DNA of 64,000 nucleotides from Sphaerolaimus hirsutus (taxonomy: Eukaryota; Nematoda; Chromadorea; Monhysterida; Sphaerolaimidae), in NCBI GenBank assembly GCA_964036195.1, contig OZ038459.1, positions 21,635,206 to 21,699,205 of the forward strand. Reading direction: 5' to 3'. Position numbers and translations under genes: made by a program. Positions 946 to 58,633 of this stretch are shown here, piece by piece. The first letter of the stretch is position 1. Every line of letters begins with the position of its first letter. The notes beneath the pieces are model-generated. The model was not told the origin of the DNA, did no database searches, and was given only the letters and a program-made list of their open reading frames with translations.

Positions 946-1101
946 GACTTGACTCAAGACTCAATTTTATTTGCCTGACTCAACTCAACTTTTCACTGAC
1001 TCGCCCAATTCGACTTGCTGACTCCACCAGAAAAATTTTGGGGTTGCGACTCGAACTCCAGTTTGAAAACTATTGAGTTTTGAGCCATTATGACATCACT
1101 A
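946..1101. mobile_element. Right half of a TAGTGATG-ended hAT-type MITE with GACTCA words
   Basis: About ten variants of the word GACTC/GACTCAA occur between 946 and 1080, followed by a terminus ending in CATCACTA at 1101, the inverse of the TAGTGATG end used by the elements at 38.2, 41.3, 52.2 and 57.7 kb. No matching left end with the flanking octamer aaaataca was found, so the element is truncated or rearranged on its left. Non-coding. Confidence 0.5.
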
Positions 1102-1303
1102 AAAATACAAAATAGTCTAAAAAATTACAGTATAATTTTCTCCATCACATACCATTTACCACTTCTACAAATGCATACTTCTTTCACAAAAAATGGTTTG
1201 TTTGCAGCATTTTTTTAGAGTATTCAATGATGTCTTCATAACATGAAAACTAACAAAAAAAGACAGCGTCCATTTCGGGCTATTCTGACACAATATTAAA
1301 CTA

Positions 1304-1631
1304 CCGTATTTGCTTGAATAGTTCCCCCCCTTGAATAATTCCCCCCTCGAATAATCCCCCCTGTAAGACGAGTGAGGAAATAATAATTCCCCCCCTCGAA
1401 TAATCCCCCCCTTTAAAGATTTGATTCATTCGTTCTACCTAATTTTTACAAAAATGGCACGTTATTGTGTTTATAAGGCATGTTCCGAGAAATGAGTTGA
1501 CGGAAACATGCTTGAAAATTTTGACGAAATAATAATTCCCCCCTTGAATAATTCCCCCCCTCGAATAGTCCCCCCTCAAAAATGTCTGACGAAATAATAA
1601 TCCCCCAGGGGGATTATTCAAGCAAATACGG
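1304..1631. mobile_element. TA-flanked MITE, subfamily CCGTATTTGCTTGAATA
   Basis: The element begins CCGTATTTGCTTGAATA and ends with the inverse TATTCAAGCAAATACGG. It is flanked by TA on both sides (1302-1303 and 1632-1633), the target duplication of Tc1/mariner-like and some other DNA transposons. The interior holds several copies of a word derived from the terminus, C(T/C)(T/C)GAATAATTCCCCCC. It encodes nothing, so it would depend on a transposase in trans; the superfamily is inferred from the TA duplication only. Confidence 0.8.
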
Positions 1632-1847
1632 TATTTTGAAAACCAAAACATGAGTTTTCACAAGGAACCATGAAAACTAGCTGGAGTGGTGCCATAAGTT
1701 TCAAGAGTAGTTATTTTTTAAGTTAGTATGTAGTAGGTGACAAAAGTTGAGTCCTCTAGAAATGGAGGTCATGATTTGAATGAATTGTAAAAAGTGTGTG
1801 CTCTGTGCAGTATACTCCAGTTACTTGACACCTTGCACGCGTGGTTC

Positions 1848-2014
1848 CCGTTGGAAGTGTGCCAACAATGGCTAACGCGTGTGAGTTTCATAAAAAGATG
1901 ACAAAATTGATGGTTGTTATAATGTTATTCTTTAACATATTCACATCGATGAAATTTTTTCATCTTTTTATGGAAATCGCATGATTACATAATCATTGGC
2001 ACGCTCCCAACACG
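1848..2014. repeat. Imperfect foldback (hairpin) MITE remnant
   Basis: The left arm (about 1850-1915, containing GTGTGCCAACAATG and TTTCATAAAAAGATGA) is mirrored by the right arm (about 1955-2014, TCATCTTTTTATGGAAA and AATCATTGGCACGC). The flanks at 1811 and 2047 hold related AGTATACTC / GAGTATA motifs, as in the palindromic family at 6.4 kb. No clear target duplication. Non-coding. Confidence 0.5.
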
Positions 2015-2101
2015 AGACATAAATCAGTGCGAGGGCAGAGTATCATGTACGCCGAGTATAAGAGCGGATTATTTGTCAATATTTTGAAAATACTTGCTTG
2101 A

Positions 2102-2361
2102 AAATATTGTGATAATACGGTTACTAAGGTTATCGTATCACAAAAACTACTGAAATACTGCATTTAAGGTGTAAAATTCTAATTTTAAAAATTTCAAAAA
2201 CTGCTCAAACAAATTTGAAAAGTACCAAAAAATACCAGAAAAATACCAGAAAATTCTAAAACAATTTACCTAGTGGAAAAATTCTAAAATTCAAACAGAA
2301 GTCATTTCAGAAAAAAACACTAAAATTCAATACTTTTTTTCTAGAGGGTTTGCCATCGTTA
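2102..2361. mobile_element. Right end of a TAACGATGG-type hAT MITE
   Basis: The last 45 bp, ending TTTGCCATCGTTA at 2361, match the right end of the complete element at 53505-54315, but the array inside uses words such as AATACCAGAAAA instead of GAAAATTCG. The left terminus is not found, so the copy is truncated or too diverged. It is an example of conserved ends with replaced interior words. Confidence 0.45.
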
Positions 2362-2418
2362 CTCGTCATGAGTGAATAAAAAAGCATTCAACATATACGT
2401 ATACTTTGAAATAAGTTA

Positions 2419-2892
2419 CCGTATTTCCTCGAAATACCCCCCGGGGGTGATTGTTTCATAGTGGTCCCGAGAGGGGGGGGGAGGTAAAACGAGGGGGGGG
2501 GGGGGGGTATTTCGAGGGGGGTATTATTTCGCAATAAATTTTTTGAAATCCTAGTACAAAATCATTGTTTGTGATGTACACTGGGGTAGAAAAATGCATC
2601 AATAACTGACATATATACCTAGACTCCTGTAGACTAATATTAGTACGTAGATGGTATTTATAAACACTGTTCTAACGTGATTCCGACATTCGTTTAACGT
2701 GTGTTCTGCACTAATGCAGAACACAAACTGCCTGCAGTATTTGTCATGTAGGTACGTTCTCTTTACACTCAATCTGGGGGGGGGGGGGTATTTCGAGGGG
2801 GGGGGGATTGTTTCATAGTGGTCACGAGAGGGGGAGGGGGTCAAACGAGGGGGGGGGGGTATTTCGAGGGGGGGTATTTCGAGGAAATACGG
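2419..2892. mobile_element. TA-flanked MITE, subfamily CCGTATTTCCTCGAAATAC
   Basis: Starts CCGTATTTCCTCGAAATACC after TA (2417-2418) and ends with its inverse before TA (2893-2894). Words (C)TCGAAATACCCCCC/GTTTGACCCCC fill both arms, and long G-runs make the right arms strongly G-rich. The core (about 2560-2770) is shared with the copies at 46580 and 47627, including the stretch ACTAATATTAGTA. Non-coding. Confidence 0.85.
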
Positions 2893-3165
2893 TAAGTAAT
2901 TTTAATAACTCTGCTTTTTCTTGCTCTTTACCATCACTACTAGTGTATCAAGTATTCAATCAATGTGTGAATACTAATCACCACGCAAATATGCCACGCA
3001 GGACGTGCACTACCGTACCTACTGAAGAAGACACCTGGCAGAAATCTGCAAACACATACCTTGCCGATTGCCTTAAACCTGAGGCGTGATCAAACATCTC
3101 CCGCCGTGAACAACAATATTTCATCGAGTTACCTCGGTTGAATTAACACCTTTCCCCTTGAACTA

Positions 3166-3635
3166 CCGTATTTCCTCGTAATACCCACCCCCTCGAAATA
3201 CCCCCCGTCTCGAAATACCCTCCCCCCTCAAAATGGACACTATGAAATAATTACCCACCCCCTCGAAATACCCCCCCGCTAATTGTATGTAAAGGGTAAA
3301 TAGATATTGTAATATGTACATGACTAAAGCTGCGGTTTGTGATCCGGGCAATGCAAAACAGACGTTAAAAAGAACCACAGTGTTACGTTAGAACTTTTTT
3401 ATACCATCTACATACTTACCTATGTAAGTGTATAGTCTCTATTACATGGTGTTGATTGGTGTACTTTTTGACGTCTGCGTACGTTACAAACGACAAATTT
3501 GTACCGGGATTTCAAAAAATTTCTGGCGAAATAATAAGCCCCCCCCCCTCTCGAAATACCCCCCTCGTTCAATTCCCCCTCAAAATTATCACTCTGAAAC
3601 AATCACCCCCCGGGGGGTATTTCAAGGAAATACGG
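3166..3635. mobile_element. TA-flanked MITE, subfamily CCGTATTTCCTCGAAATAC
   Basis: A second copy of the same subfamily, 270 bp downstream of the first. It begins CCGTATTTCCTCGTAATACC (one mismatch in the terminus) and ends TTCAAGGAAATACGG, with TA on each side (3164-3165, 3636-3637). The core differs in length from the previous copy. The small frames across it are artefacts of the C/G runs. Confidence 0.8.
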
Positions 3636-3743
3636 TACCTTGACTTTGTGTGTTTGTGTGTCTGTATTTTTGTGGACAGTTTTCTGCGAAATTGACGTTG
3701 AGTAAATTTCGTTCCAGCATAATTCGTTATTCGTAGTATTTAT

Positions 3744-5761: not shown

Positions 5762-7709
5762 CAGGCTGTCCGCGCCGGAAACGCATAGTGTTTCCAGTGC
5801 GTTTATCCTTAAAGCGATTGCCAAATTGGAATCACATTAAGCAAATATCACTAAAGTGTTTACACGGGGTAACCACTTTAAGGCACATGGTTCAAGCCCC
5901 TGCGGTCGCGCAGCGCATGTGCCACTGCGCGCTTGCTGGGGGGAGACGCTTTAACCGCGCGTGTTTATGCATCTTGGAATCGCGCTGGCAGAAAACAGCC
6001 CCGCGCTTGCACCCCTGGAAATGCGTTAAGGAATGCTAGACACACTAGTCCACACCGCTGCACACACTAGTCCACTAGTGATTGAGTTTGGTCCAGAGAA
6101 GGCATATTTGCAGGGTGGCCCAACAGTTTTTAAATGTTTTTTTACGATCAAATTTTCTAATTGATTTGGCTTTTTGCATAACTTTTTCCCATCTTCACCT
6201 TCAAGTTAAGTTGTAAACATGTAACAAAATTCATTTCATAGCTTCATTACCTGGATATAATACCTTAATTAATCATAAATAAAAGCAAACAAACATAAAA
6301 TGCCAGCCCATGTGATCTCAATGAACCACCCTGTTCTTTAAAAAAACCTGCGCTGCACTGGTTATGCGGGAGTGTATACTCTGTGCACATCACACTTAAT
6401 ATGGAATCCTACCATAACCCATCTGAATATTGAACCAAAAATTTTGCAGTTTTTTCATCACAATATTTCGTTTTTACGATGTAATGATTAATTACAAAAT
6501 TTATCACAAGATTTTATTCATAAAAATATGGTAGGATTCTGCACATACTTTGCAGTCCGCCGAGTATTCATGTTAAAAATAGTCAACTGATCCTATACTT
6601 CACATTGATTTTTACCATATTGAAAGATAAATACTAATTTTTGCATGACATTACACTGCACTGACTATAACGTTAGTTCAGTGAAATTTGTCACATTTGA
6701 GTTTATTCATAGAAAAACGGTAACACAGTCTGAATAGAATTCAGTTGGATGAACAATTGAATCGATAATTGTTGCCTCTTTAGAAGCCGACATTTTTAGA
6801 AGTCAATTCACCATTTAACAAGGTCGGAAAAAAATATTAAGTCAAAATGGAGACTTTCTTATGCAATTTGTGGCAGCAAGGATATCTTTGATCATGCCAC
6901 ATCTGTTCCGTGAAATTTCATAAAGTGTGACTGAATTAATGAGGGCTTTTGTGATGTGGGAAAGTTTCAAAATGATGCAAACAGTGTGAGAAATCAGTGC
7001 CGATTAGCGGCAACATGAAATGCCAATTTGAATGTTGGTCATCATGATAATTACTTATCAATTAATTTAATAATATCAATGTATATAATGACATTTTAAC
7101 TGATTGGACCACATCCTTTGCACAGAAAGTTACCATATTTTGATGAATCAAGTCATGTGAATATTTGGGTTGAATTTGGTAAATTTTGGAGCAAATTGAA
7201 CAGCTGAAAATTACCATGAATTGCATAAAAATAATAGTGACAATTTTCTCCACTTCATGATTATATGCCATGTCTACATGCAATGCCATTTGAGACTTTT
7301 CAATTTTATTTTGCTATAGTTTTCATGTTACCACTTTCATTCATTCATCAGTATTTTTACAATTAAAATAGCAATGTTTGCGAAACCTCTGTCTGGTTTC
7401 ACTCAGGACACAAATCAAAATCAATAATTGATAAATAAATTAGGTACGCACGCAATTCCAGCGGGTTTATAATTTTCTTAAGGTGCATGCAATATTGGAA
7501 ACCCTTTAACAGAGTGTTTCCAGAGTGGCAAACACTTTGGCGCGCTGCGCGCTTGGGCGTTTATTTTTTGGGAGTCGCTTTAAGCGACATGTTTCCGTGC
7601 TTGCGTTTGTTCACATGCATGTGCCACTGCACGCTTGCCAATTGGTAAACCCTTTAAGGCAGCGCGTAAAGCATTTATGGCTTAAAGGCTTTCTGTTGCG
7701 GCCAGCCTG
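5762..7709. mobile_element. hAT-type non-autonomous element (1.9 kb), CAGGCTG ends, GCGCGCTTGC words
   Basis: The ends are CAGGCTGTCCGCGCCGGAAA at the left and the inverse of CAGGCTGGCCGCAACAGAAA at the right. The 8-bp target duplication ATCCACAC flanks it exactly (5754-5761 and 7710-7717), diagnostic of hAT-type transposition. Both subterminal regions (about 5762-6040 and 7490-7709) are arrays of GCGCGCTTGC, TTAAAGCG, GGAAAC and CATGTGCCACTGC words in a GC-rich context, while the 1.4-kb core is AT-rich and carries no credible transposase frame. It is therefore a long MITE or deletion derivative. A second left end, CAGGCTGTCCG, lies at 28224. Confidence 0.85.
6372..6566. repeat. Palindromic MITE inside the hAT element
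   Basis: AATCCTACCATA on the left is mirrored by TATGGTAGGATT on the right, with outer motifs AGTGTATACTCTGTGCACAT and GCACATACTTTGCAGTCCGC. Relatives with the same TATGGTAGGATT...CACATACTT block occur at 29.2-29.4 kb and a partial one at 45.85 kb. Non-coding. Confidence 0.6.
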
Positions 7710-7950
7710 ATCCACACAGAATTTTCACATACTTGCGTCAACCATATAAAGCATGAATAATGTATGTCAGTGTTAAATACATTCAATGTGAGCAATGCTC
7801 TGACGCATATAAACAGATTCATTATCATGACAAGATATTCATAATTCCATCTCACCAAGGCTCATAACATTATAAAGCAGGAGGTAATTAGGAGCAATAA
7901 TTGTTCAAAGGCACACATAATAGGAAACCATTAAAATTTGACACATAATA

Positions 7951-8385
7951 CCATATTACCTCGAATTATCCCCCCCCTTGAATTAACCCCCCCTCGAATT
8001 AACCCCCCCCTAAAAATGGGCTGGGGAAATAATAAACCCCCCCCCCTCGAAATACCCCCCCCTTCGGAATGATGTACGTCATGTACATAATAAATACGTC
8101 ATGTACGCAACGTACATGATGAATATTACTGTTAATTTGCATTGCAACTACACATAGATTAGTTTGTGTAGCTATCTACGTTTGAATGTCCAAATATATC
8201 CTGTTTGGACACATTTATTACCTATTTTGTGTACGCAAATGCCTACTATTTACTACGATCCTTACGAAAATTTCTGACGAAATAATAAAACCCCCCCTCG
8301 AATAAACCCCCCCTCGAATTAACCCCCCCTCAAATTTTGCTGGCGAAATAATAAACCCCCATGGGGGTATTTCGAGGTAATATGG
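7951..8385. mobile_element. TA-flanked MITE, subfamily CCATATTACCTCGAATTA
   Basis: Begins CCATATTACCTCGAATTATC after TA (7949-7950) and ends TCGAGGTAATATGG before TA (8386-8387). Interior words are CTCGAATTAACCCCCC and CTCGAAATACCCCCC. The core (8060-8270, with GCTACACAT-like sequence) is shared with the inner copy at 50639-51087 and with the degraded copy at 41540. Confidence 0.85.
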
Positions 8386-8488
8386 TAAGTGATTTGCCAA
8401 TTGTGTCAATAGACATTACATCCCAGGGAGTTTCCCATAGTAACTTTTTCACATGCATTTTTGGCGTCGTTTTTCAAGCTTCCCATGG

Positions 8489-9812: not shown

Positions 9813-9854
9813 CTCCGGGCGGAAGAGTTGCTGCACCCCGTTGTTGCAGCAACG

Positions 9855-21127: not shown

Positions 21128-21137
21128 CATGGAGCTT

Positions 21138-39169: not shown

Positions 39170-39714
39170 GTCATCATCCATTGTTAGTAGAAACAATGAC
39201 AAATGTTTCTCCTGCTGTTCAGGCTGTCATAAAAGGCAAGAGGCAATATATTACAAAGGTTAATATTACTACTTTCCCTCATTGCAAAAAAACTATACAT
39301 GCTTTACACAGGGAAAAGTGATTTTCTGACAGCTCTCTGACAGTTTGCTTGACAACCATTAAAATATGTGGTAGCTCGCAGACAAAAATTTTCAACTTAC
39401 TGACAGCTTGCTGACAACTAAATTGCTGCATTCTGCAGCTTGCTGACAATTGGCTGACAAAATGCACAACATTAGGTTATTTATTTGACCCAAAGTAAGT
39501 AAGCTCAACAGGGATGTACACAGGATTTTTGAGTGGGGGGGGGGGGCGGATTGTATACGGAGCCCGGCAAACGGGGGGGGGCGGTGCCCCCCCCCCCCTC
39601 AATTTTGGCCCTATAGTAAAGAAATGGAGCCATGGCGCTGGCGCCATTTGTAGGCGCCAACGCCATGGCAGTATTGGCGCTGGCATTGGCGCCAAAGTCT
39701 ACTACCGTATTTCC

Positions 39715-39963
39715 TCGAAATACCCCCCCCCTCGAAATACCCCCCCTCAAAATGGGCACTATGTATTTGTGGTCCGGGAAATGCATAACAGACGTTATAA
39801 ACACTTACTGCGTTACGTTAGAACATCGTTTATACCATCTACATCCTTATATAAGGCTGTAAAAACTTATAAATGATGGTTATTGCTGCATTTTTCGCGT
39901 TTTTCTCCCAAAATTTTCACTCTGAAAAAATAAACCCCCTGGGGGTATTTCGAGGATATACGG
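39715..39963. mobile_element. Short TA-flanked MITE, subfamily CCGTATTTCCTCGAAATAC
   Basis: Begins CCGTATTTCCTCGAAATACC after TA (39713-39714) and ends TTTCGAGGATATACGG before TA (39964-39965). At 249 bp it matches the outer copy of the nested pair at 50606-51318 almost throughout, including TTGTGGTCCGGGAAATGCA. Confidence 0.85.
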
Positions 39964-39965
39964 TA

Positions 39966-44083: not shown

Positions 44084-44732
44084 GAGCCCTTTAGCCTACC
44101 AAACCACTAGTTAATGTCCAAGGTCCAACTGGCACATGTCCAAACACTATATAAGACTTTTTGGCACATCTCCAACTATGTGCATCTGTCACAATCTTAT
44201 ACCATACTTGGAGATGTGCCAAAACATCTTTGACAATATTTGGACATGTGCCTAATTGGACATGTGCCAATGTTAGAACAGTGCCAATGCTGGACATGTG
44301 CCAACAAATATGTACAGCCAACCTTTGTGCCATGTACTTTGGCACACGGCCAATGCTGGAATGGTGCCAATATGCCAACATGGGACATGTGCCAAAGTAC
44401 ATGACGCAAACGTTGGCTCTTGCCCAATCATTATTGGACTTGTGCCAATAACATTGAACAAGTGCCAATACTGTATTGGACAAGTGCCAATACAGTATTG
44501 GGCTTGTGCCAACAAGATTGGATGAGTGCCAAAAACATTGGACAAGTGCCAAATAGTATTGGGCAAGTGCCAACCAGTATTGGCTGAGTGCCAATGACAT
44601 CACTGGGACATAAGTCTCCAATCCGGACACTTGCAGGAAAAACAAATGACATCATTGGCACTCATTGTTTACTTGGCACTGTGCCAAGAAACGAGTGGTA
44701 CATTACCCAGTGGTCTGGTAGGCTAAAGGGCT
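44084..44732. mobile_element. Word-array MITE built almost wholly of TGTGCCAA / AAGTGCCAA repeats
   Basis: Terminal inverted repeats of about 24 bp (GAGCCCTTTAGCCTACCA at the left, its inverse at the right) enclose roughly 25 copies of a 16-18 nt word of the type ATTGGACAAGTGCCAA, in both orientations. There is no core. No target duplication was recognised (flanks GTCATTT and TGTTATT). The frames of 184, 96 and 97 codons across it are repeat artefacts, not genes. Confidence 0.8.
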
Positions 44733-44757
44733 CTGTTATTCTGCTTATATATTAAAA

Positions 44758-45471: not shown

Positions 45472-45624
45472 ATGCTCTATTCATTACTAATATATAATCA
45501 ATCAATTTGCTTAGTCTGGCTCAATGATCTGACGCTAGTGTGGAAGCAATCTTAGCTTGTAAAGTACTGCGTAGATGTGTCCACACTAGTGATGTTAAAG
45601 GCACTGGGAAATATGGCACTGCAC

Positions 45625-46363
45625 TAGGTTGTCAAATTTTTGTTTCCATTTTCCTTTTCCGCTTTTCCGCAGTAAAAATTTTTACCTTTCCGTTTCCCGG
45701 CGGCTGAAAACTTTTTACCTTTCCATTTACCGTTTTCTGGCAGCTGAAAATTTGTTACCTTTCTTTTTCCATTTTTCCGGCCCATTTTTTCCGTTTTCCG
45801 GTGGAAAAATTTGTACCTTTCTGTTTCTCTTTTTCAAGGCCATTTTTCCATTTTCTGGCTCTGGACACATACTTTGCAGTCCACTGAGTATACTTTTTAC
45901 TGTTCAGTTACATCAAAGTACACTTTTGCTAAATTATTATTGTTGTAGTGTACTTTTGCTACCTTTTGATTATTTTTTGTTGGTTCAGTTAAGCTTGAAC
46001 GACAAGTGAAGTTACTGGCATAATCCATAGTTGTGAATGTACAGCTACCACAATCAAAGCCAGAGAATTTTTCCATTTTTGTGCAAATTTCGCTCTTTTT
46101 CCATTGCCATGAAAATTTTGCTTTATTTTTTCCATTTCCATGAAAATTTTGCTTTCTGTTGTCCAGCATGTCATTTTTCCATTTTCCGTTTTCCAGCCAA
46201 TATATTTTTTACCTTTCCATTTTCCATTGAGCGAAAATTTTTTTACCTTTCCATTTTCCGTTTTCCGGCAGAAATTGTTTTGTTACCTTTCCATTTGCCG
46301 TTTTCTGTAAAGTGAAAAAATTTTACCTTTCCGTTTTCCGTAAAAAAAATTGTTGACACCCTA
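45625..46363. mobile_element. hAT-type MITE, TAGG(G/T)TGTCAA ends, ACCTTTCCGTTTTCC words
   Basis: Ends TAGGTTGTCAAATTTTTG and the inverse of TAGGGTGTCAACAATTTT; perfect 8-bp duplication CACTGCAC at 45617-45624 and 46364-46371. Both arms are arrays of TTTTTACCTTTCCGTTTTCC-like words. The core (about 45860-46040) includes a piece of the CACATACTTTGCAGTCC palindromic family. The Phe/Leu-rich frames across it are artefacts. Confidence 0.92.
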
Positions 46364-46579
46364 CACTGCACTGCATCGTCACATATGCATTCCTTAAAAG
46401 GGCACCTGGCACCAGAGTTGGTCAAAGTACCAATCCTTTTTCAAAGTATATGTAAACATGAAGTATTTATTTTTTACTCACACCCTGATTTCAGAAAATG
46501 TAAAGTAATTTTTTTTACTTCTACTCATGAGTAAACGTGAGTAAATTACTTTTCACCCCAGAAAATGTATTTTTGAGTA

Positions 46580-47038
46580 CCGTATTTCCTCGAAATACCC
46601 CCCGGGGGGTGATTGTTTCATAGTGGTCCCGAGAGGGGGGGGGGTTAAACAAGGGGGGGGTATTTCGAGGGGGGGGGGGTTATTATTTCACCAGAAAATT
46701 TTTTAAATCCCAGTACGAAATTGTCGTCTGAAACGTACGCAGACGTCGAAAAATACAACAAAAACCACCATTTATAAGGTTATGTAGACTAATATTAGTA
46801 GGTAGATGGTATAAACACTGTTCTAACGTGATTCCGACATTGTTTTAACGTGTGTTCTGCACTACGCAGAACACAAACTGCAGTATTTGGCATGTACGTT
46901 CTCTTTACACTCAATCTGCGGGGGGGGGGGGGGTATTTCGAGGGGGGGGGTGATTGTTTCATAGTGGTCTCGAGAGGGGGGGGGGTCAAACGAGGGGGGG
47001 GGGGTATTTCGAGTGGGGGGTATTTCGAGGAAATACGG
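46580..47038. mobile_element. TA-flanked MITE, subfamily CCGTATTTCCTCGAAATAC
   Basis: Terminal repeats CCGTATTTCCTCGAAATACC in both orientations, TA at 46578-46579 and 47039-47040. The core matches 2419-2892 (ACTAATATTAGTAGGTAGAT, TCTAACGTGATTCCGACAT). The right arm is G-rich, with several runs of 7-13 G. Confidence 0.9.
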
Positions 47039-47150
47039 TATTTTTGCTGCCGTATCCACACTGTCGGTCCATTTGCCTTTTGCAGTTAACCACTTTGCTT
47101 TGCTATGTTGTAATCAAATGCATGATGTGGTAAATGCGGATATATAGGTA

Positions 47151-47598
47151 CCGTAAATGCTCTATTAGGACGACCCCCCTCCAATAAGGCGACCTCTCCA
47201 ATAGTACGACCCCCTTTGGCACGTTGTGTAAGTATAAAGCGACCCTCTCCAATAATGCGACCCCTTCAATAGTGCGACCTCAAAAGATAAACAAAAAACA
47301 AAAAATGGATGTAAGAACATTATGTCGCAATTTTTGGATGACGCTAATTTCGGCGGACAAGGTGGGGCCAGTTCGCCAGAGCCAGCGGGCAATTCACAAG
47401 GGTATACACATTGCTAATGTGCAAGGGCAATATTTCTTTACAATGTCATGCTCATACTAGAGTTACATGAACAGTTGAGTTGAGGTGTCGAAAAATACAA
47501 TGCGACCCTCTCCAATAAAGCGACCCCTCCAATAATGCGACCCCCAAAAATGTGCTGAAAACAATAAACCGACAGTCGCCTTATTGGAGCATTTACGG
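47151..47598. mobile_element. TA-flanked MITE, subfamily CCGTAAATGCTC
   Basis: Begins CCGTAAATGCTCTATTAGGA and ends with the inverse of CCGTAAATGCTCCAATAAGG, TA at 47149-47150 and 47599-47600. Interior words are CTCCAATAA(A/T)GCGACCCCC, again copies of the terminus. The central 200 bp has an Ala/Gln-type frame without family resemblance. Confidence 0.88.
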
Positions 47599-47626
47599 TA
47601 TGTATTTACATCATCAAATGTGCATA

Positions 47627-48872
47627 CCGTATTTCCTCGAAATACACCCCCCCCCCCCCTCGAAATACCCCCCCTCGTTTGACCCCCCCCCCCCCCTCTC
47701 GGGACCACTATGAAACAATCACCCCCCCCCTCGAAATACCCCCCCAAATTGAGTGTAAAGGGAACGTACATGACAATAACTGTAGTTTGTGTTCTGTGTA
47801 CTGCAGAACACACGTGAAAAAATGTCGGTGTCACGTTAGAACCAGAGTTGCGAAAGTGTATTTACACTTACCCGAAATACCCGGGTAAATGGGTATTTAT
47901 ATTTACACTTACACTTACACTTTCATAAAATACCCATACACTTTTTTTACACTTTCCTGAGCAAAATACCTGGGTACAGAAAGTGTATTTTTTTCTTTCA
48001 GAGATGGCCCTGTTATATTCTTTTGAGAATGCATAAAATAGCGTCATGTACAAAAAATAACTGCACAGTGCACACATGCAGTTATGCATTTAATGTACAA
48101 AATATGGCAAATGTACCAACTGGCCTTTGATCTCCAACCTTTGATCAGTACTCATGGTATTCTACAGTCTCATCATACTTTTGTAAAAAGGACAAGATCA
48201 ATGGAAATTCACCAGCTGGACACAAAGTCAACTGGCTTTTGCATTGACATTTGCTGCATGTCCAATCTTGCATTTAAGCAGTGTGTATCGCATTGCTTGA
48301 TCAGTAAATATCAACACTGAAAAAGTGCCATTATTAGTGAACTTCATACCACTACAGTATTTGCTACAGTCTGAAATGTTTCATAAAAGGCAGTGAAATG
48401 TGAAATGATGTATAAAAATGACAACTATATTGATCTAAAGGTGAAAACAGTGGTGTATTCTAATGCTCAACAGTGAGAGCTCTTTCAAAAAAAAATTTTT
48501 ACACTTACACTTTTTTTACACTTTCCTAGGTATTTTTAAAATACCTTACACTTTTGGTATCCATACTCAAAATTTGGAAAGTGTATTTACACTTACACTT
48601 ACACTTTCCAAAAATACCGGTATTTTAACAACTCTGGTTAGAACAATCTTCATACTAATATTAGTCTACAGAACCTTATAAATGGCTGTTTTTGTTGCAT
48701 TTTTCGACGTCTGCGTACGTTTCAGACGACAATTTCGTACTTGGTTTTCAAAAATTTTCTTGTGAAATAATAACCCCCCCCTCGAAATACCCCCCCCCCT
48801 CGTTTAACCCCCCCCCCTCTCGGGACCACTATGAAACAATCACCCCCCGGGGGGTATTTCGAGGAAATACGG
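47627..48872. mobile_element. TA-flanked MITE, subfamily CCGTATTTCCTCGAAATAC, with a hAT MITE inside
   Basis: Starts CCGTATTTCCTCGAAATACA and ends TTTCGAGGAAATACGG, TA at 47625-47626 and 48873-48874. The element at 47843-48636 interrupts its core; without it the length is about 450 bp, as for its relatives. Confidence 0.88.
47843..48636. mobile_element. hAT-type MITE, CAGAGTTG ends, TTACACTTAC words
   Basis: Starts CAGAGTTGCGAAAGTG and ends with the inverse of CAGAGTTGTTAAAATACC. The perfect duplication GTTAGAAC (47835-47842, 48637-48644) restores the core of the host MITE when one copy is removed. Arrays of TTTACACTTACACTT and ACTTTCC words lie at both ends; the 450-bp core has no transposase frame. 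Confidence 0.95.
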
Positions 48873-48999
48873 TACATATTTATCTACAAATTGCACATAA
48901 ATAATGAATATTATTTGAAAACGATATGAAAAATATATTGCCGTGCTCGTTTACATTGACCCCCCAAAACCGCTTATGAAACAATACATTGGCGGTCAA

Positions 49000-49467: not shown

Positions 49468-50493
49468 CAGGGTTGGTTTTATAAAAATCATTTGTATACA
49501 ATTGTATAAAAATTGTATAAAAATGTATTTTATTTTAATTTTATTCTTGTTTCAATTTATTTTATTTTATTTTATTCCAAAATAATAATAAAATAATAAA
49601 ATGGACCATTTTACAAAAATTTTACAAAAATTGTACAGAAATTTTACAAAAAATCAGAATATTGCATGCAAGGTCAGAAAAATGTGATAATTAGACCTAA
49701 ACATGAAAAACGTGCAACAAATTTTTCCACAACTTTGCAAAAGTTGCATGCAGTAGGTACTGTTAGCTAGTTGCAAGTGTTAAGTTACAATTATCGATAA
49801 GAATGGTTTGCATTTTCAGTAGAAGGATTACTGGAGTGTGCTGGGCGCATTTGTAAAACATCATGCAAAGTGTCACTTGTCATGACAAATGTAGTAAAGA
49901 GTCAATTGGCATATTAAATGTCAAGCAAAGTATAATTGTCATGACAAATGTTGTGCAGAGTGTAAATTGTGTATCTCAATCTTATGTTTTGGTATCCAAA
50001 CATTATATTTTGGGATCCAAATCTTATGTTTTTTGTATCCAAATGTTCACATAAGATTTGGTTACAAAAACACCAAGATTTGGATACAAAAGATAAGATT
50101 TGGATACAATTTGCTTTACAGTTTCCACTTTAATCTATATTTGTCATGACAATTGACACTTTACTTAACATTTTCATGAAAATTGACACTTTCCATCCCA
50201 TTTAATATGACATTTTGACACTTTACATGGCTTGGGCTGCCCCAGCTCCGCGAATGAACAGGTTGAACTATAAACAACAGAAAAAAATTTTACAAAAAAT
50301 ATGAATTTTTATACAATTTTTACAAAAATATGAATTTGTATACAATTTTACATTAATTTTACAAAAATTCGAATTTTTATACAATTTTTATTTTTATTTT
50401 GAAATTTTCCATTTTATTTTATTTTATTTTATTCTTCAATTTTCCATTTTATTTTTATTTTTTTTATTCTTTTCTGAGATTTTGCCAACCCTG
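49468..50493. mobile_element. hAT-type MITE (1.0 kb), CAGGGTTGG ends, TTTTATTTTA words
   Basis: Starts CAGGGTTGGTTTTATAAAA and ends with the inverse of CAGGGTTGGCAAAATCTCAG; perfect duplication TTCGTGGA at 49460-49467 and 50494-50501. Three vocabularies are layered: outer ATTTTATTTT / TTTACAAAAATT, then GTCATGACAAATGT, then a central AATCTTATGTTTTGTATCC array. The element at 56195-57217 is the same family in the opposite orientation. Confidence 0.92.
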
Positions 50494-50605
50494 TTCGTGG
50501 ATAAAGCAGGTGATGATCACACTGCAAGATCATGTGTCAGTCAAAACAGACAAAAAAGGCAACATTGAGGTGGATAGGAAAGAACACATAGGCCCCAGTC
50601 ACCTA

Positions 50606-51318
50606 CCGTATTTCCTCGAAATACCCCCCCTCGAAATATCGTATACCCTCGAATTATCCCCCGAATGAATTAACCCCCCCCCCTCGAATTAACCCCCCCC
50701 CCTCAAAATGGGCTGGGGAAATAATAACCCCCCCCCTCGAAATACCCCCCCCCCTTCGGAATGATGTACGTAATGTACATAATAAATACGTCATGTCTGC
50801 AATGTACATGATGTATATTACTGTTAATTTGCATTGCAGCTACACATAGACTAGGTAGTTTGTGTAGCTATCTACATTTTTATGTCCAAATATATCCTGT
50901 TTGGACACATTTATTACCTGTTTTGGGTATGCAAATGCCTACTATTTACTATGATCCTTATGAAAATTTCTGACGAAATAATTAAACCCCCCTCGAATGA
51001 CCACCCCCCCCTCAAACTAACCCCCCCCCCCTCAAATTTTGCTGGCGAAATAATAAACCCCCATCGGGGTATTTCGAGGTAATACGGTACCCCCCCCCCC
51101 CTCAAAATGGGCACTATGAATTTGTGGTCCGGGAAATGCACAACAGACGTTCAAAACACTTACTGTGTTACATTAGAACATCGTTTATACCATCTACATC
51201 CTTATATAAGGCTGTAAAAACTTATAAATGGTGGTTATTGTTGCATTTTTCACGTTTTTCTCTCAAAATTTTCACTCTGAAAAAATAAACCCCAGGGGGG
51301 TAATTCGAGGAAATACGG
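50606..51318. mobile_element. TA-flanked MITE interrupted by another TA-flanked MITE
   Basis: Outer element of the 39715-39963 type. Left end CCGTATTTCCTCGAAATACC at 50606 and right end TAATTCGAGGAAATACGG at 51318, flanked by TA. The two halves (50606-50638 and 51088-51318) align continuously with 39715-39963 once the inner element and one TA are removed. Confidence 0.9.
50639..51087. mobile_element. Inner TA-flanked MITE, subfamily CC(A/G)TATTACCTCGAATTA
   Basis: Flanked by TA at 50637-50638 and 51088-51089, inserted in the sequence CGAAATACCCCC of the outer element. Ends are TCGTATACCCTCGAATTATC (three mismatches to 7951) and TTTCGAGGTAATACGG; the core (GTACATAATAAATACGTCAT etc.) matches 7951-8385. 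Confidence 0.9.
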
Positions 51319-51364
51319 TATATGTCTGTAATTGGCAACCGCGCTGCAAAACAACCCACGATCA

Positions 51365-51546
51365 GGGGCCAGTTCCGCAAAATGAGAAGTGAAAAGTGAA
51401 ATGGCAAAAGCGAAGTAAAAAAATGAAAATAAAAAGTTATTTCTCTTAGCTTTCGCCATTTCACTTGCCAATTCATATGCCGGTTCACTTGGCCTTTGCG
51501 CCTTTGCCATTTCACCTCTCATTTCTCATTTTGCGGAACTGGCCCC
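51365..51546. mobile_element. Small MITE with GGGGCCAGTTCCGC ends and GAAATGGCAAA words
   Basis: GGGGCCAGTTCCGCAAAATG at the left and its inverse at the right are perfect over about 24 bp. The interior is words AAGTGAAATGGCAAA and their inverses. No clear target duplication. Confidence 0.7.
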
Positions 51547-52065
51547 AGGTGGTGAACAGGACCGCGGCCGACGCAGCTGCGTCTCAACGGACACCAGTGA
51601 GTACGACCAGCACGTGGCGGATTTGTATAAATTCATGGCGGCGCAGCAAAGGAGCTACAGCAGCTCAGGGGCCACTTCTGCAAATTGAGAAGTGAGAAGT
51701 GAAATGGCAAATGCCAAGTGAAATGACAAGTGAGAAGTGAAATAGCAAATGCCAAGTGAAATTAGAAGTGAGAAGTTAATTGAGAAAAAAATTGGCAAAT
51801 GCGAAGGGAAACCACTTTGTTTTTTGTTTTTTTTTACTCCGATTTTGCCAATTTACTTGCCATTTCACTTCGCTTTTGCAAATTATCTTCTCCATTCAGT
51901 TGGCATTTGCCACTTCACTTCTCACTTCTCAATTTGCGGAACTGGCACCAGGCTGGAGATGCGATGCGGGCATGTGGGAGCTTGAATCAGAGCAATGTCT
52001 CACAGTGGTGATAAATGGCCCCATTTTGCTGCTCCTCGTGCACTATGTTGACTCGTTCCTGACAG
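51547..52065 (+). pseudogene. Interrupted coding-like segment (pieces 51547-51667, 51950-52065, 54550-54570)
   Basis: Between and beside small MITEs lie pieces whose joined frame stays open: a GC-richer segment 51547-51667, then 51950-52065 (ESEQCLTVVINGPILLLLVH). After removal of the nested elements at 52066-54541 and one duplication copy, the frame continues for about ten codons to TAG at 54574-54576. Two frames of the first piece are open (one reads EYDQHVADLYKFMAAQQRSY), so the true frame is unclear. No family recognised; it may be an old exon used as a transposon landing site. Confidence 0.35.
51668..51949. mobile_element. Small MITE, relative of 51365-51546
   Basis: Ends GGGGCCACTTCTGCAAATTG and the inverse of GGTGCCAGTTCCGCAAATTG; interior words GAAGTGAAATGGCAAATGCC repeated about eight times in both orientations. 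A CAG...CAG or GCT target repeat is possible but not convincing. Confidence 0.65.
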
Positions 52066-52240: not shown

Positions 52241-53192
52241 TAGTGATGGAAAAAGCGCCAGACTTTTGGCGCCAAGCGCCAAAAGCGCCATGGCGCTTTT
52301 GTGACCCCCAGCGCCAAGCGCCAATGGCGCCAGAGCAAAATAGCGCCAAGCGCCAAAAGCGCGATGGCGCTTTTCTGAACCTCAGCGCCAAGCGCCAATG
52401 GCGCCAGATAGTAATGGCGCCAAGCGCCAAAAGCGCCAGCGCCAAAAATTTATTCTGCAATTCGTTTGTAGAATAATCAATTTGTAGGTGTGACATAACG
52501 CTGATGTCGCAGTAGTCGATTTAAATTCTGCCAATAAAGTTCAATCAACCACTACAACGTTTCATACATCATTAAAATCAGAAGGGATACACCTATTTTT
52601 CAGCCAAACAGCCGTACGTTTATGGGTCCTAAATATTATATCCCATTAAAATAGGTAGTCATGTTTATCACCAGTTATGGGAATGTAAATACCTATTCTT
52701 TACACAAACCTTTACCAAAACTCCTGGCGTAATAATAAACCCCTCCCTCGACATACCCCGTCAAAATTTGCACTCTGAATAAATATACCCCTTGAGGTTA
52801 TTTCGGGGAAATACGGTACATACATTTGCCCCAAATATTACCTAATCAATATTTTATAAATAAAAATGTTCCTTTACACCCTTATATTTATCAATATTTA
52901 TTCAGTCATTCTCAAAATTGATCAACTGGCTTGTCTATTTTCACTGAATCATAAGTATTTTATAATCATGGTTGGCGCTTTTTTGGCGCCATTAAAAATA
53001 CCAGCGCCAGGCGCCAATAGCGCCGCCAGAAAATGGCGCCAAGCGCCAAAAGCGCCATGGCGCTTTCTCAGATCCCGGCGCCAAGCGCCAATGGCGCCAG
53101 AGCGTTTTAGCGCCAAGCGCCAAAAGTGCCATGGCGCTTTTTGCTTTGGCGCTAGCGCCAGGCGCCAGCGCCATGGCGCTTTTCCATCACTA
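52241..53192. mobile_element. hAT-type MITE, TAGTGATGG ends, GGCGCC words
   Basis: TAGTGATGGAAAAAGCGCC at the left, the inverse of TAGTGATGGAAAAGCGCC at the right; perfect duplication TTCCTGAC at 52233-52240 and 53193-53200. Arrays of AAGCGCCAAAAGCGCCATGG words at 52245-52450 and 52975-53190. The core includes a truncated TA-type MITE right end (CCTTGAGGTTATTTCGGGGAAATACGGTA region, ending 52817). Confidence 0.95.
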
Positions 53193-53504: not shown

Positions 53505-54315
53505 TAACGATGGCAAAAAAAGATTCGAAAATATTTTCAAATTTTTGAATTTTTTCATAATTTTCGAATTTTTATTTCACCCCTGGAAAAAACACTTAAA
53601 AATCGATTTATTTTTAAAAAAAATTCGAAAATTCGAAAATTCAAAAATTCGTAAATAGTTTTCGGATTTTTCAGGGAAAAAAGGTGACAAAACGCAGTTT
53701 TAAGTTCAGAGTGCTAAATAAAGTGACAATTGCTATGCGGTAGGTCTGAAAATGTCTCATGTAATGAAATAACAAACATTAAAAAAAAACATTGAAATGG
53801 CATCCGCGGCAGCAGCGGCGGACTCAATCACATCCCATTAGGAATGCACGGAGCTGCCCAAACAATTAGAACCGCGGCCCTCTACTTCCGCGGATACAGA
53901 CTCCGGTCCATCAAAAAAATATCTTGCGGGTTTTCCAAGGGGCAGTCACAATACGTTTTTGAAAGGCATTCAGCCCCAGCGAAAATGGTGAAAACTGATC
54001 CACATAAGTGTTTCTACCATTTGTCATGTTAAAGTGAAGTGAAATTGTCATGTCATGCTTCACTTACAGTAAAATTAAGGTTAAAAGGGGCTCCAAACAT
54101 GAAGACAGTCCAAATACTGTGTTTTAAGCTACAAATTCAATATTTTTCTAAAAAAATTCGAAAATTCCCAAAAAAGATTCGAAAATTCGAAAATTCGAAA
54201 ATTAAATTCGAAATTCGAAAATTAAATTGGGAAAAAATTCGAAAATTCGAAAATTCACTTTAGAAAAAACACTTAAAAATTTAAATACTTTTTTCTGGAA
54301 GGTTTGCCATCGTTA
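53505..54315. mobile_element. hAT-type MITE, TAACGATGGCAAA ends, GAAAATTCG words
   Basis: Starts TAACGATGGCAAAAAAAGA and ends with the inverse of TAACGATGGCAAACCTTCC; perfect duplication GTCGACTA at 53497-53504 and 54316-54323. Words ATTCGAAAATTCGAAAA occupy both ends; the core (53690-54110) is unrelated and non-coding. The left array is longer than the right. Confidence 0.95.
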
Positions 54316-55223: not shown

Positions 55224-56163
55224 TAGTGATGGAATGGCGCCATGGCGCTGGCGCCATTTCAGGGCGCCAAAGGGCGCCGCGCCATGGCGCCATTGGCGCT
55301 TGGCGCCCTTTTTCTGTGGCGCCCTTGGCGCCTGGCGCCCACATTCTGAAAGGCGCCATGGCGCCCTTGGCGCTTGGCGCCCTTTTTCCGTGGCGCCCTT
55401 TTTCCGTGGCGCCCTTGGCGCCTGGCGCCCTGCTTTTAAAGGGCGCCAAAAAGGCGCCAGCAGGGTTTCAAGGTGAGTGCTGTATAAATGGTAAAAATGA
55501 TGAAAAACGCATCCATGGATGATCTGAATTCGCCAGAAAAATGGACGAAGTGGTGTGAGTGGGTATAAATCTTTTGTGCAACGGTTCATCAGATGTGTCT
55601 GACAGATCAGAAGACGAGAATGATGGAACGTTGAACTTGTAAAATCATAAATCAACGGATTCAAATCGTTGCAATTCCGTTTTTTTTGTCCATTTCGAGG
55701 AAACATGATTGGAAAAGTCAATTTGAAGTGAATGGATTGTTGTCAAATGACAATATCCATTGTGTTTGAATTGTCATATGAATTTTACTCAAATTTTTTT
55801 GTTGCTAGTGTTGCCTGTGTTCATTACACCCTGGAGAATGCAAATTAAGTAGTGAATGCATGTACTAGGGGCTGTAGAAACACTTTTAGCACATGCAGAG
55901 TGTTGTATGCCCTTATTTATCCTGGCGCCCTTGGCGCCTGGCGCCCTATTTTTCAAATGGCGCCATGGCGCCCTTGGCGCTTGGCGCCCTCTTTCCGTGG
56001 CGCCCTTGGCGCCTGGCGCCCGCTTTCGGAATGGCGCCATGGCGCCCTTGGCGCCTGGCGCCCTTTTTCTGTGGCGCCCTTGGCGCTTGGCGCCCACTTT
56101 CTGAATGGCGCCATGGCGCCATTGGCGCCTGGCGCCCTTTTTTCTGGCGCTTTTCCATCACTA
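55224..56163. mobile_element. hAT-type MITE, TAGTGATGG ends, TTGGCGCCTGGCGCCC words
   Basis: Ends TAGTGATGGAATGGCGCC and the inverse of TAGTGATGGAAAAGCGCC. Arrays of CCTTGGCGCCTGGCGCCC at 55230-55465 and 55920-56150; core 55470-55915 AT-rich. The flanking octamers ATTGCATC and CATACATC agree at only five of eight positions, unlike the other elements. The Arg/Trp/Pro-rich frames of 74-183 codons are repeat artefacts. Confidence 0.85.
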
Positions 56164-56194
56164 CATACATCCCATCAACTCATGTAGTCGTGGT

Positions 56195-57217
56195 CAGGGT
56201 TGGCAAAATCACAGAAAAAAATAAAAATAAATTAAAAATAAAATGGAATATTCAAGAATAAAATAAAATAAAATAAAATGGAAAATTTAAGAATAAAAAT
56301 AAAAATTGTATAAAAATTCGAATTTTTGTAAAATTGTATAAAAATTTGTATTTTTTAAAATTGTATAAAAATTCATATTTTTTGTAAAATTTTATCTCGT
56401 TGCTTGAGTTTCTACCTGTTTATTCATGGATCTGGGAGCAGTCCCATTTGTAAAGTGTCAAATGTCATGTATAATGTCATGCAAAGTGTCAATTGTCATG
56501 ACAAATTTAAGGTAAAGTGTAAATTGTCATGACATGTAAAAAATAAAGTATCAATTGTCAAGCAAATTGTGTCCAAATATTATGTTTTATATCTAAATCT
56601 TATGTTTTGTATCCAAATTATGATTTTGTTGAATCCAAATCTTATGTGAACATTTGGATACAAAAACATAAGATTTGGATACAAAACATACTATGGATAC
56701 AAAAACACAAGATTTGGATACACAATTTACACTTTGCATGACATTTGTCATGACAATTGCCACTTTGCTTGAACTTTGACATGACACTTGACATTTTGCA
56801 TGACAATTGACACTACAATTAACAAATTGCATTACATTTTACAAATGTGCCCAGCACACTCCACTAATCCTTCTACTGAAAATGCAAACCATTCTTATCA
56901 ATAATTGTAACTTTACACTTGCAGCTAGCTAACAATACATACTGCATGCAACTTTTGAAAAGTAAGGGAAAAATTGGTCACAGGTTTTTCATGTACAGGT
57001 CTAATTATAACATTTTTCTGGCTATGCATGCATGATTCTGATTTTTTGTAAAAATTTTGTAAAATTTTTGTAAAATGTGTCATTTTATTTTATTAATGAC
57101 TTTTGGGAATAAAATAAAATAAAATAAAATGAAACAAGAATAAAATTTAAAAAAATAAAAATTTTATACAATTTTTATACAATTTTACTAAAATGAATTT
57201 TTATAAAACCAACCCTG
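56195..57217. mobile_element. hAT-type MITE (1.0 kb), CAGGGTTGG ends, inverted copy of the 49-kb family
   Basis: Starts CAGGGTTGGCAAAATCACAG and ends with the inverse of CAGGGTTGGTTTTATAAAA. Duplication GTCGTGGT (56187-56194) versus GTTGTGGT (57218-57225): seven of eight match, the difference being a CpG-to-TpG change. The layered vocabularies are those of 49468-50493. Confidence 0.9.
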
Positions 57218-57225
57218 GTTGTGGT

Positions 57226-57524
57226 TAGTGATGGAAAAGCGCCATGGCACTGGCGCCTGGCGCCATCGCCAAAGCAAAAAGCGCCATGGCGCTTGGCGCT
57301 AAAACGCTCTGGCGCCATTGGCGCTTGGCGCCGGGATCTGAGAATGCGCCATTCGCTTTTGGCGCTTGGCGCCATTTTCTGGTGGCGCTATTGGCGCCTG
57401 GCGCTAGCATTTTGAATGGCGCCAAAAAAGCGCCAACCGTGATTAGAAAAATGGTTATAATACTGTGAAAATGCACAATCCAGTTGATCAATTTTGAGTA
57501 CAACTGAATAAATATTGATAAATA
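57226..57524. mobile_element. Left half of a TAGTGATGG, GGCGCC-word hAT MITE
   Basis: Begins TAGTGATGGAAAAGCGCC at 57226 and runs through the array and first part of the core (CCAGTTGATCAATTTTGAG, shared with 57960-57990). The right end was not found; the copy is interrupted by the TA-type MITE at 57525 and probably truncated by later insertions. Confidence 0.7.
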
Positions 57525-57718
57525 CCGTATTACCTCAAAATACCCCCATTGGGGTTTATTATTTCGCCAGCAAAATTGAAGGGGGGGTTAATTCGAGGGT
57601 GGGGTATTCGAGGGGGTTTTTATTATTTCATCAGAAATTTTCATGAAATTCATAGTAAAGTATACGCTTTTTCATACACAAAAACGGTAATAAACGTGAG
57701 AAAGTAGGTCATATTTGG
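57525..57718. mobile_element. TA-type MITE fragment, subfamily CCGTATTACCTC
   Basis: Starts CCGTATTACCTCAAAATACC after TA (57523-57524). The body corresponds in inverse to the right part of 7951-8385 (TTTCATCAGAAATTTTCATG). It is cut by the element at 57727; weak similarity resumes at 58642 and stops near 58680. Confidence 0.65.
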
Positions 57719-57726
57719 GCTATAGG

Positions 57727-58633
57727 TAGTGATGGAAAAGCGCCAGGCGCCAAAGCGAAAAGCGCCATGGCGCTTTTGGCGCTTGGCGCTAAAACGCTCT
57801 GGCGCCATTGGCGCTTGGCGCCGGGATCTCAGAAAGCGCCATGGCGCTTTTGGCGCTTGGCGCCATTTTCTGGTGGCGCTATTGGCGCCTGGCGCCGGAA
57901 TTTTTAATGGCGCCAAAAAAGCGCCAACCTTGATTATAAATATTGCTATGATACTGTGAAATTGAAAGTCCAGTTGATCAACTTTGAGGGCAGCTGAATA
58001 AATTTTGATTGATGTAAGGGTGTTGTAAGAGGTGATTTTACAATTTTACATTATTTATAAAAGATTGATTAATATTAGGAGACAACTTTATTTGCATCGA
58101 ATTCAATGAAAAGTCTAAAATGATGCTCTTTTCAAAGGTCCTCATATTTGTTTAAATACCTTAGTTCTCACAAAAATGTACTGGTATTGTATCCACCTTT
58201 ATTCATTTTAAGCCTCAACTGATAAACATTGATGATTACGACACGAGAGATGATTGATTTCAAGAAAATGGATTTTTTTCTAATCACTTAATCCCCTTCC
58301 AGAATTTCCCTTCCCCCTTACATGGTTGATTGAACTTTAATGGCCAAAGTGAAAAAGACTACATCGACATTAGCAGTACATCACAGTTATGTATTCATAA
58401 CTCTAAAAACGAATTGAAGAAAAAAATTTTGGCGCTGGCGCTATTGGCGCTTGGCGCCATTATCCTCTGGCGCCATTGGCGCTTGGCGCTGAGGTTCAGA
58501 AAAGCGCCATGGCGCTTTTGGCGCTTGGCGCCATTTTGCTCTGGCGCCATTGGCGCTTGGCGCTGTAAGTAGGAAAAGCGCCATGGCGCTTTTGGCGCTT
58601 GGCGCTAAAAGCTTGGCGCTTTTTCCATCACTA
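57727..58633. mobile_element. hAT-type MITE, TAGTGATGG ends, GGCGCC words
   Basis: Starts TAGTGATGGAAAAGCGCC and ends with the inverse of TAGTGATGGAAAAAGCGCC; perfect duplication GCTATAGG at 57719-57726 and 58634-58641. Arrays of TTGGCGCTTGGCGCC at 57740-57925 and 58430-58625; the core shares blocks with 52455-52975 in inverse orientation. Confidence 0.95.

Follow-up and report, generated by a model that had tools for sequence, protein, structure and literature searches.

The window analyzed here, a 64-kb stretch of contig OZ038459.1 of the nematode Sphaerolaimus hirsutus, contains BEL/Pao and gypsy retroelement frames together with a dense nest of small DNA elements, and in most of these elements a pair of inverted tips encloses an array of short words that run one way. 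On the basis of this single window, we favor, with moderate confidence, the reading that these are non-autonomous elements made of inverted tips, mostly one-way and lineage-specific words that are putative transposase-binding sites, and a passenger core. An initial annotation of the sequence had described constant short ends with interchangeable word arrays; its observation was partly confirmed and its interpretation partly supported, as detailed below.

Subterminal repeats are known in hAT elements; at issue are how the ends are told apart and how binding words change together. The window offers several families, and nested sublineages that have the same tips and different words. The rule that emerges is measurable: tips are inverted and arrays direct and, in family A, words are conserved while spacers and cores are free. 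Whether the specificity of the transposase and the binding words have coevolved thereby becomes a testable question, through genome-wide counts and binding assays.

Orientation of tips and arrays

The elements (Table 1) were catalogued by tip as families A (TAGTGATG), B (CAGGGTTGG), C (CAGAGTTG), E (TAACGATGG), H (CAGGCTG) and K (TAGGKTGTCAA), with X5, the less certain G (GAGCCCTTTAGCC) and the TA-duplicating family D (tip TACCGTATTT...) in addition; family boundaries and word labels were set partly by eye. After removal of the 20-bp tips, the left and right subterminal arrays of each element, excluding C2, X5, A5, D6 and D13, were compared in direct and inverted orientation. The first run covered 25 elements without homopolymer collapse, with 60 shuffles each and a cut-off of z>6. 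The direct match passed the cut-off in 19 elements, I1 and I2 matched in inverted orientation, and C3, E8, D5 and D10 showed neither clearly; in A1, A2 and A6 the inverted z was also >6, below the direct value. In the second run, with homopolymers collapsed, 400 shuffles, and D5 and D10 left out as having almost no array, the direct match exceeded all 400 shuffles in 20 of the 23 elements. Of 300 control windows, for which the criterion was instead z>6 over 30 shuffles each, 2 matched in direct and 1 in inverted orientation. The initial annotation had taken words in both orientations to be the rule; this was not borne out for most elements. I1 and I2 are truly inverted, C3 is unclear, and E8 scores almost alike in the two orientations.

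Strand counts of individual words gave a similar picture. The ratio of majority to minority orientation was 7:0 in K1 and 15:4 in G and, among the TA copies, 6:1 in D1 and D4, 4:1 in D2, D3, D7 and D9, 4:0 in D11, 3:1 in D6, 2:1 in D5 and 1:1 in D10; D13 has one word, and D8, whose word lies outside the search pattern, contributed none. Exactly one minority-orientation word is present in each of D1, D2, D3, D4, D5, D7 and D9, and the listed tips of most of these copies hold one word at each end. The single minority word fits the word located in the opposite inverted tip. No description of a direct-array rule in MITEs (miniature inverted-repeat transposable elements) was met in the literature searched, subscription journals and Repbase reports being outside its coverage.

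Words, spacers and descent

The arrays occupy roughly 100-300 bp per end, and their autocorrelation exceeded that of each of 100 shuffles in several array segments, if not in all. The claim that each family has its own word held in that one word prevails in each lineage and that lineages sharing a tip differ; it did not hold for A2R and D4, which are mixed. In family A, the arrays are built at both ends of tandem units of ~74 bp, each with several GCGCC words. Among 11 array segments of family A, 8 had a lag of 74 or 75 as their strongest period (A1L and A2R were not above the best shuffle), as did all five A elements when segments were pooled by element. In a profile search, the strong matches to the unit ran in one genomic direction at the left and right ends alike in A2, A3, A4 and A6. 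H1 also has the 74-bp period at both ends, though its tip and word differ from those of family A; of 2000 shuffles, 6 attained this period at one end and 5 at the other, and its being common to A and H1 is suggestive only. Two further candidate rules were rejected. Helical phasing at 10.5 bp ranked second of 57 periods summed over ten families, driven by G and H1, and the phasing peaks were at 8.25 in family A and 16.75 in the TA family. An excess of self-complementary 6-mers (z at least 3), expected if palindromic words were general, was found in only 3 of 40 segments (A2L, A4L and A4R).

We aligned 15 near-complete family A units, chosen by hand from the profile matches, with word columns set by consensus. 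Between A sublineages, words were 0.87-0.94 identical and spacers 0.47-0.65. The 39 word columns had an entropy of 0.21 and the 34 spacer columns one of 0.94 (Mann-Whitney p 1.2e-7), and three trios with one unit per lineage gave Fisher p values of 3e-4 to 2e-5 for words versus spacers. Conservation of words while spacers diverge is as expected of putative binding sites, and the initial annotation is supported on this point in that the words are the constrained part of the family A arrays. One alternative is that the tips by chance flanked a pre-existing tandem repeat, so that the array is a captured satellite carried as neutral cargo. The direct orientation and the nearly coreless G would fit such a single-array origin, but words are better conserved than spacers when A sublineages are compared, and the same design recurs in several families, which makes it highly unlikely.

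The contrast between words and spacers is largely confined to the longer time scale. In five recent homologous pairs of family A units, the words were identical at 39/39, 36/38, 36/38, 37/39 and 32/36 positions and the spacers at 33/35, 34/35, 35/36, 35/35 and 26/34. Words and spacers are similarly conserved in these pairs, which places the constraint mostly in the master lineage, prior to insertion. In the unit tree, A3L_u1 grouped with A6R_u2 (98/98), and A3R_u1 with A5L_u1 and A6L_u1 (92/88). The A3, A5 and A6 units are therefore grouped by position and not by copy, which indicates ordinary descent. Weaker same-end pairs were A2L_u1/u2 (84/87) and A4R_u2/u3 (80/72). The initial annotation had envisaged a general mechanism by which the words of one element stay alike, and had named descent of the interiors as the outcome contrary to it. 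Descent is what we found at the A3/A5/A6 time scale. This position-wise descent, together with the small contrast in recent pairs, does not support continuous within-copy homogenization.

Twelve hand-chosen blocks from 6 of the 12 TA copies were compared with C runs collapsed and gapped positions dropped. The blocks at both ends of D2, D7 and D9 were 0.92-0.98 alike, compared with 0.52-0.59 against the D4/D11 blocks; the D2 and D7 cores are 80% alike. Within single copies, block likeness was 0.97, 0.94 and 0.98 for D2, D7 and D9 and 0.74 for the two blocks of D3. In D2, D7 and D9, the within-copy pairs (0.94-0.98) were not more alike than the between-copy pairs; their end blocks are alike at the level of the lineage, with no single-copy excess. 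In B1/B2, identity was mostly higher at the ends (0.92-0.96 in the outer 100-bp bins, 0.78-0.92 in the inner ones).

These data also bear on the possibility that slippage, unequal exchange or conversion keeps words alike mechanically, with no binding function. Such concerted evolution would account for the nearly identical, lineage-specific end blocks of D2, D7 and D9, the existence of 74-bp tandem units and the weak within-end groupings in A2L and A4R. However, A words are alike while the short spacers between them differ from unit to unit and from lineage to lineage, so that conversion tracts would need to be about the size of a word, and recent copies show position-wise descent. We consider this explanation unlikely.

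As had been proposed, constant tips occur with changing words, in families A, C, D and E. Within family A, A1 and A2 have a common array scaffold when read in tip orientation (A1R versus A2L, z 11.6; A1L versus A2R, z 9.4), whereas A1 compared with the A3 or A6 arrays gave a z of 2.9 at most. The A1 arrays contain no GGCGCC and 25 GGTGCC or GGCACC. The same G-to-A change was found in 9 of 12 aligned words of A1R/A2L and in 10 of 11 words of A1R versus A4R (1 and 0 of 20000, respectively, in a permutation of the commonest change); the 17 words of A1L/A2R showed 7 G-to-A and 5 C-to-T changes (385 of 20000).

One could envision that this switch from GGCGCC to GGCACC or GGTGCC reflects methylation-driven mutation at the same CpG of each word and not adaptation. 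The changed site is the CpG, whose hypermutability the permutation ignores, the A1L/A2R changes are mixed, and A2R holds a mixture of 7 GGCGCC and 9 GGTGCC or GGCACC at an observed/expected CpG ratio of 0.62. Decay would predict a mixture of strands; A1R is strand-coherent (11 GGCACC to 0 GGTGCC), but A1L is mixed (6:8). Moreover, A1 gained CpGs, the base after the word having changed from A to G at 8 of 20 sites, whereas elsewhere in the spacers 6 of 46 A sites did so (p 0.02), and the word differences between E8 and E2 and within the TA family are unlike CpG transitions (the C-family words were counted, not aligned). As an account of the whole switch, CpG decay is decidedly improbable; it could explain part of the A1/A2 difference.

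In family E, E8 has 12 TTCGAA in its arrays, and E2, with the same tip, has none and 3 ATTCTA. The C-family counts were 16 TACACTT in C1, 4 TTTACTC in C2 and 16 and 13 GTACGC/CGCGTA in C3 and C4. In the TA family, the word is GAATARTY in D1, GAAATAC in D2, D3, D5, D7 and D9, and mainly GAATTA in D4. The description of the cores as unrelated was correct for family A, in which the cores of A1, A2, A4 and A3/A6 showed no cross-match at E 1e-4 except for a TA-element piece in A2 and A3.

Class assignment and a possible mechanism

At least a dozen elements had been said to carry 8-bp duplications, and this was verified: the target-site duplication (TSD) is perfect in 12 of the 14 elements with flanks compared (A1, A2, A3, A6, B1, C1, C2, C3, E8, H1, X5 and K1), with 7/8 in B2 and 5/8 in A4. 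K1 was spotted by eye, and its flanks, CACTGCAC, were then verified at 8/8. The X5 duplication is palindromic (GTGGCCAC) and could belong to the terminal inverted repeat (TIR) of that element; the G flanks agree at 6/8, as read by eye. A strict scan (perfect 8-bp TSD and 11/12 TIR) returned 12 pairs, compared with 0 in each of 10 shuffles. Seven of these are elements; the other five comprise 3 internal E8 matches, one run of N and one pair that bridges two TA copies. With looser criteria, 20 matches had a perfect TSD, compared with 0-1 per shuffle in 20 shuffles; they were split by hand count into 8 elements and 12 internal matches that are not countable as elements. For I1 and I2, which have arrays, no TSD could be found.

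The TA-type family was likewise confirmed, with 12 copies or partial copies tabulated. A TA duplication is seen when D11 within D10 is compared with the uninterrupted D5, which has a single TA. The rejoined flanks of D9, which carries C1, match D7 and D2, each with a single GTTAGAAC, beside which there is a further gap of 11 or 15 bases. Both nestings support the element boundaries.

hAT elements generate 8-bp TSDs and have the tip consensus YARNG. By eye, families A, B, C and E fit this consensus (TAGTG, CAGGG, CAGAG and TAACG), with the right tip of C2 (CATAG) outside it. Judged from sequence features, the 8-bp families are probably hAT-like MITEs, non-autonomous and of the cut-and-paste type, and family D, whose TA duplication is the one expected of Tc1/mariner-type MITEs, appears to consist of TA-duplicating MITEs, unassigned to a superfamily. 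Because H1, K1, X5 and G do not fully fit YARNG, they are hAT-like at most, by duplication length alone. Membership in CACTA was rejected because the tips and TSDs do not match the CACTA tip and 3-bp TSD. A Foldback or long-TIR MITE was also rejected: the subterminal repeats are inverted in I1 and I2 and, weakly, in C3 (inverted p 0.015), against the 20 of 23 direct elements.

No transposase was seen among 19 open reading frames (ORFs) scanned with Pfam, of which 4 had retroelement matches (including an envelope-like one) and 15 had none; most shorter frames were outside the scan. This agrees with the initial annotation, which saw no transposase in the window. Ten scanned ORFs lie within or overlap elements, and none of these had a Pfam match. 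The longest frame overlapping the 22 listed elements has 190 residues, among 134 element-frame overlaps counted. Rfam gave no match at the gathering score, and the TA tip patterns had no exact match in viral and prokaryote contig collections.

In the passages available from the relevant papers, hAT elements (Hermes, Herves and Kat1, with Ac, Tol2 and Tag1 as cited there) are similar to the window elements in having short tips and repeated motifs inside both ends, and these motifs are shown or proposed to be bound by transposase (PMC10368747, PMC4763223, PMC3143072). Herves has one motif at both ends, and the polarity of the Kat1 repeats differs between ends, the frame of reading being unstated in those passages (same sources). 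The BED domains of Hermes bind two subterminal repeats (STRs) that together form a quasi-palindrome, left STR2-7 being antisense and right STR1-5 sense (PMC10368747); this layout would be a direct orientation if the ends are read from the tip inward. The window elements differ in arrays that look denser, which is an impression, in the higher-order units of family A and in the ~100-300 bp of array per end.

For four hAT proteins, the motifs from protein-binding microarrays (PBM) match subterminal sequence in the Repbase model of the respective protein, and GCGC is preferred by several coelacanth relatives (PMC8097297). The BED-type domains of hAT-derived CGG-binding proteins diversify in motif, including GCGC-containing and AT-rich ones; the passages of this source concern proteins and describe no MITE arrays. 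CACTA elements resemble the present ones in a constant TIR, subfamily-specific subterminal words and the suggested coevolution with a binding protein, but have CACTA tips, a 3-bp TSD and repeats that form stem-loops (PMC2613891, in part). The initial annotation knew of no formal description of changing words. This was only partly right: for CACTA elements, the subterminal motifs were proposed to have diverged from one subfamily to another, probably in parallel with the protein that binds them (PMC2613891), and diverse hAT-derived BED motifs are known (PMC8097297). Galileo/Foldback elements are similar in their repetitive ends, tandem-repeat expansion, exchange between copies and proposed secondary binding sites; the Galileo repeats lie within long inverted TIRs, unlike the direct arrays of the window (PMC3573991, in part). 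Coral CMITEs also have parts that evolve separately, but their interior is conserved and their TIRs vary more, whereas the cores vary in the window elements (PMC2872659, in part).

One interpretation that joins these observations is that the inverted tips of ~8-20 bp serve as the sites of cleavage and joining and that the one-way array is a putative subterminal binding site of the N-terminal zinc finger of the transposase. Only copies with good words would become masters, so that the word would be uniform in a lineage while spacers are free, and it would shift when the transposase changes. The direct orientation might arise if the two tips of a new element enclose a single tandem array, much as they still do in G, and the core is acquired later; a one-way array would give the left and right ends different polarity. 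Slippage between the direct arrays, or abortive gap repair, a model reportedly due to Rubin and Levy in 1997, might copy blocks from end to end, which would add to the direct orientation, and could also give core replacement and coreless forms. Master-copy selection for words, with occasional block exchange, would explain more than continuous homogenization does. A broader proposal is that inverted tips with one-way arrays are a general end architecture of cut-and-paste elements in at least two superfamilies, in which the direction of the array, and not the tip, marks left and right so that only proper pairs synapse among nested copies, and in which abortive gap repair swaps cores and copies blocks, permitting wholesale word change with the transposase. 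We regard this extension as possible but rather doubtful.

Several observations weigh against the reading of binding-word arrays between inverted tips. In A1, A2, A3, A4, A6, E8 and G the inverted match also exceeded every shuffle, always below the direct one; the two E8 scores hardly differ (direct 53, inverted 51), the B2 direct score of 60 is barely above its best shuffle of 59, C3 has no direct match, I1 and I2 are inverted, and D5 and D10 showed neither orientation in the first run. On the two sides of the A cores the phase of the array is in agreement for A3/A6 (exit at 46, entry at 40) and for A2 (exit at 23, entry at 33) but, as read, not for A4; insertion of a core into a single array is therefore not proven. 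The tips of H1, X5 and G (CAGGC, ACAAG and GAGCC) lie outside YARNG, and of the two K1 tips TAGGG fits while TAGGT does not. Higher conservation of the ends than of the interior is not general: for D4/D11 the left end has an identity of 0.80 and the remaining bins 0.92-0.95, and for D2/D7 the bin at 60-120, within the array, has 0.77. The tip misfits of H1, K1, X5 and G and the unconserved D4/D11 ends lowered our confidence slightly. In Hermes, ~70% of the activity persisted when the putative BED sites of the left end were mutated, and binding of additional transposases was considered improbable, although activity was low or absent once the left end had been scrambled beyond bp 50 or 140 (PMC10368747). 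Bari MITEs are said, in part of another source, to differ from simple abortive gap repair (PMC4877112).

Catalogue of elements and neighboring features

Table 1. Positions and features of the catalogued elements in the window.
Feature	Positions	Strand	Tip	TSD	Word	Remarks
H1	5762..7709		CAGGCTG	ATCCACAC		74-bp-period array at both ends
A1	38238..39169		TAGTGATGT	GTCATCAT	GGCACCG/CGGTGCC	
A2	41291..42552		TAGTGATGG	GTTATAAC	GGCGCC (right end mixed)	TA-type copy D6 in core
A3	52241..53192			TTCCTGAC	AGCGCCAA	Nested in C3
A4	55224..56163		TAGTGATGG (both)	5/8 only	GGCGCC (often GGGCGCC)	
A5	57226..57525	+				Truncated left half of A3/A6-type copy; runs into TA-type copy D13
A6	57727..58633			GCTATAGG	AGCGCCAA	Sister of A3
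Family A unit	58474..58548	-				Example of ~74-bp higher-order unit
K1	45625..46363	+	TAGGTTGTCAA / TAGGGTGTCAA	CACTGCAC	TTACCTTTCC...TTTTCC	One-way word
C1	47843..48636		CAGAGTTG	GTTAGAAC	TACACTT	Host D9; empty-site comparison with D7/D2
C2	46413..49265		CAGAGTTG / CATAGTTG	CCTGGCAC	TTTACTC	Carries D7, D8, D9
C3	52066..54541		CAGAGTTG / CAAAGTTG	CCTGACAG	GTACGC/CGCGTA	Word mainly at right end; carries A3 and E8
B1	49468..50493		CAGGGTTGG	TTCGTGGA		
B2	56195..57217		CAGGGTTGG	7/8		Sister of B1, opposite orientation, 81%
E8	53505..54315		TAACGATGGCAAA	GTCGACTA	ATTCGAA	
E2	2050..2361	+	As E8		ATTCTA x3, TTCGAA x0	End fragment, one end found
G	44084..44733	+	GAGCCCTTTAGCC	Flanks 6/8 alike	GTGCCAA (15 forward, 4 reverse)	Nearly coreless array
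D1	1302..1633	+			GAATARTY	TA family
D2	2417..2894	-			GAAATACC	TA family
D3	3164..3637	+			GAAATACC	TA family
D4	7949..8387	+			GAATTA 4/7, GAAATACC 2/7, GAATAAAC 1/7	TA family
D5	39703..39965	+				TA family, short; D10 relative without interruption
D7	46578..47040	-			GAAATACC	TA family
D8	47149..47600	+	TACCGTAAATGCTC (related)		CTCCAATAATGCGACCC (by eye)	
D9	47625..48874	+				TA family; carries C1
D10	50604..51320	+				D11 nested inside (about 50637-51089; start 50643 used in word and orientation analyses)
I1	51364..51547					Array element, truly inverted ends (exception)
I2	51665..51952					Array element, truly inverted ends (exception)

A possible A-type element (tip TAGTGATGTTAAAGGCACTGGG) at 45587-49400 holds K1 and C2; within C2 lie D7, D8 and D9, the last of these with C1 in it, which is perhaps four levels of nesting. 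The right boundary of this possible element is poorly defined. The shared plan had been drawn from position 946 onward; the stretch there is rich in TGACTC and has no convincing duplication by eye, and arrays of GACTTGTCGACTTT and TGACTC occupy 300-1101.

The BEL/Pao retroelement lies at 10938-16802 (-), with flanking repeats at 8489-9813 and 19804-21128 that are 99.4% identical. It has a C-terminal match to the viral fusion glycoprotein model PF24664 in Pfam, an envelope-like domain. A 1354-residue open frame at 59939-64000 (-), which runs to the end of the window, matches gypsy-type pol in Pfam. A search with a gypsy pol frame gave 2504 hits; among the 120 listed, identity was 29-38%, which is uninformative. 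Finally, a near-perfect inverted repeat with 63-bp arms (97%) is located at 21570-21818.

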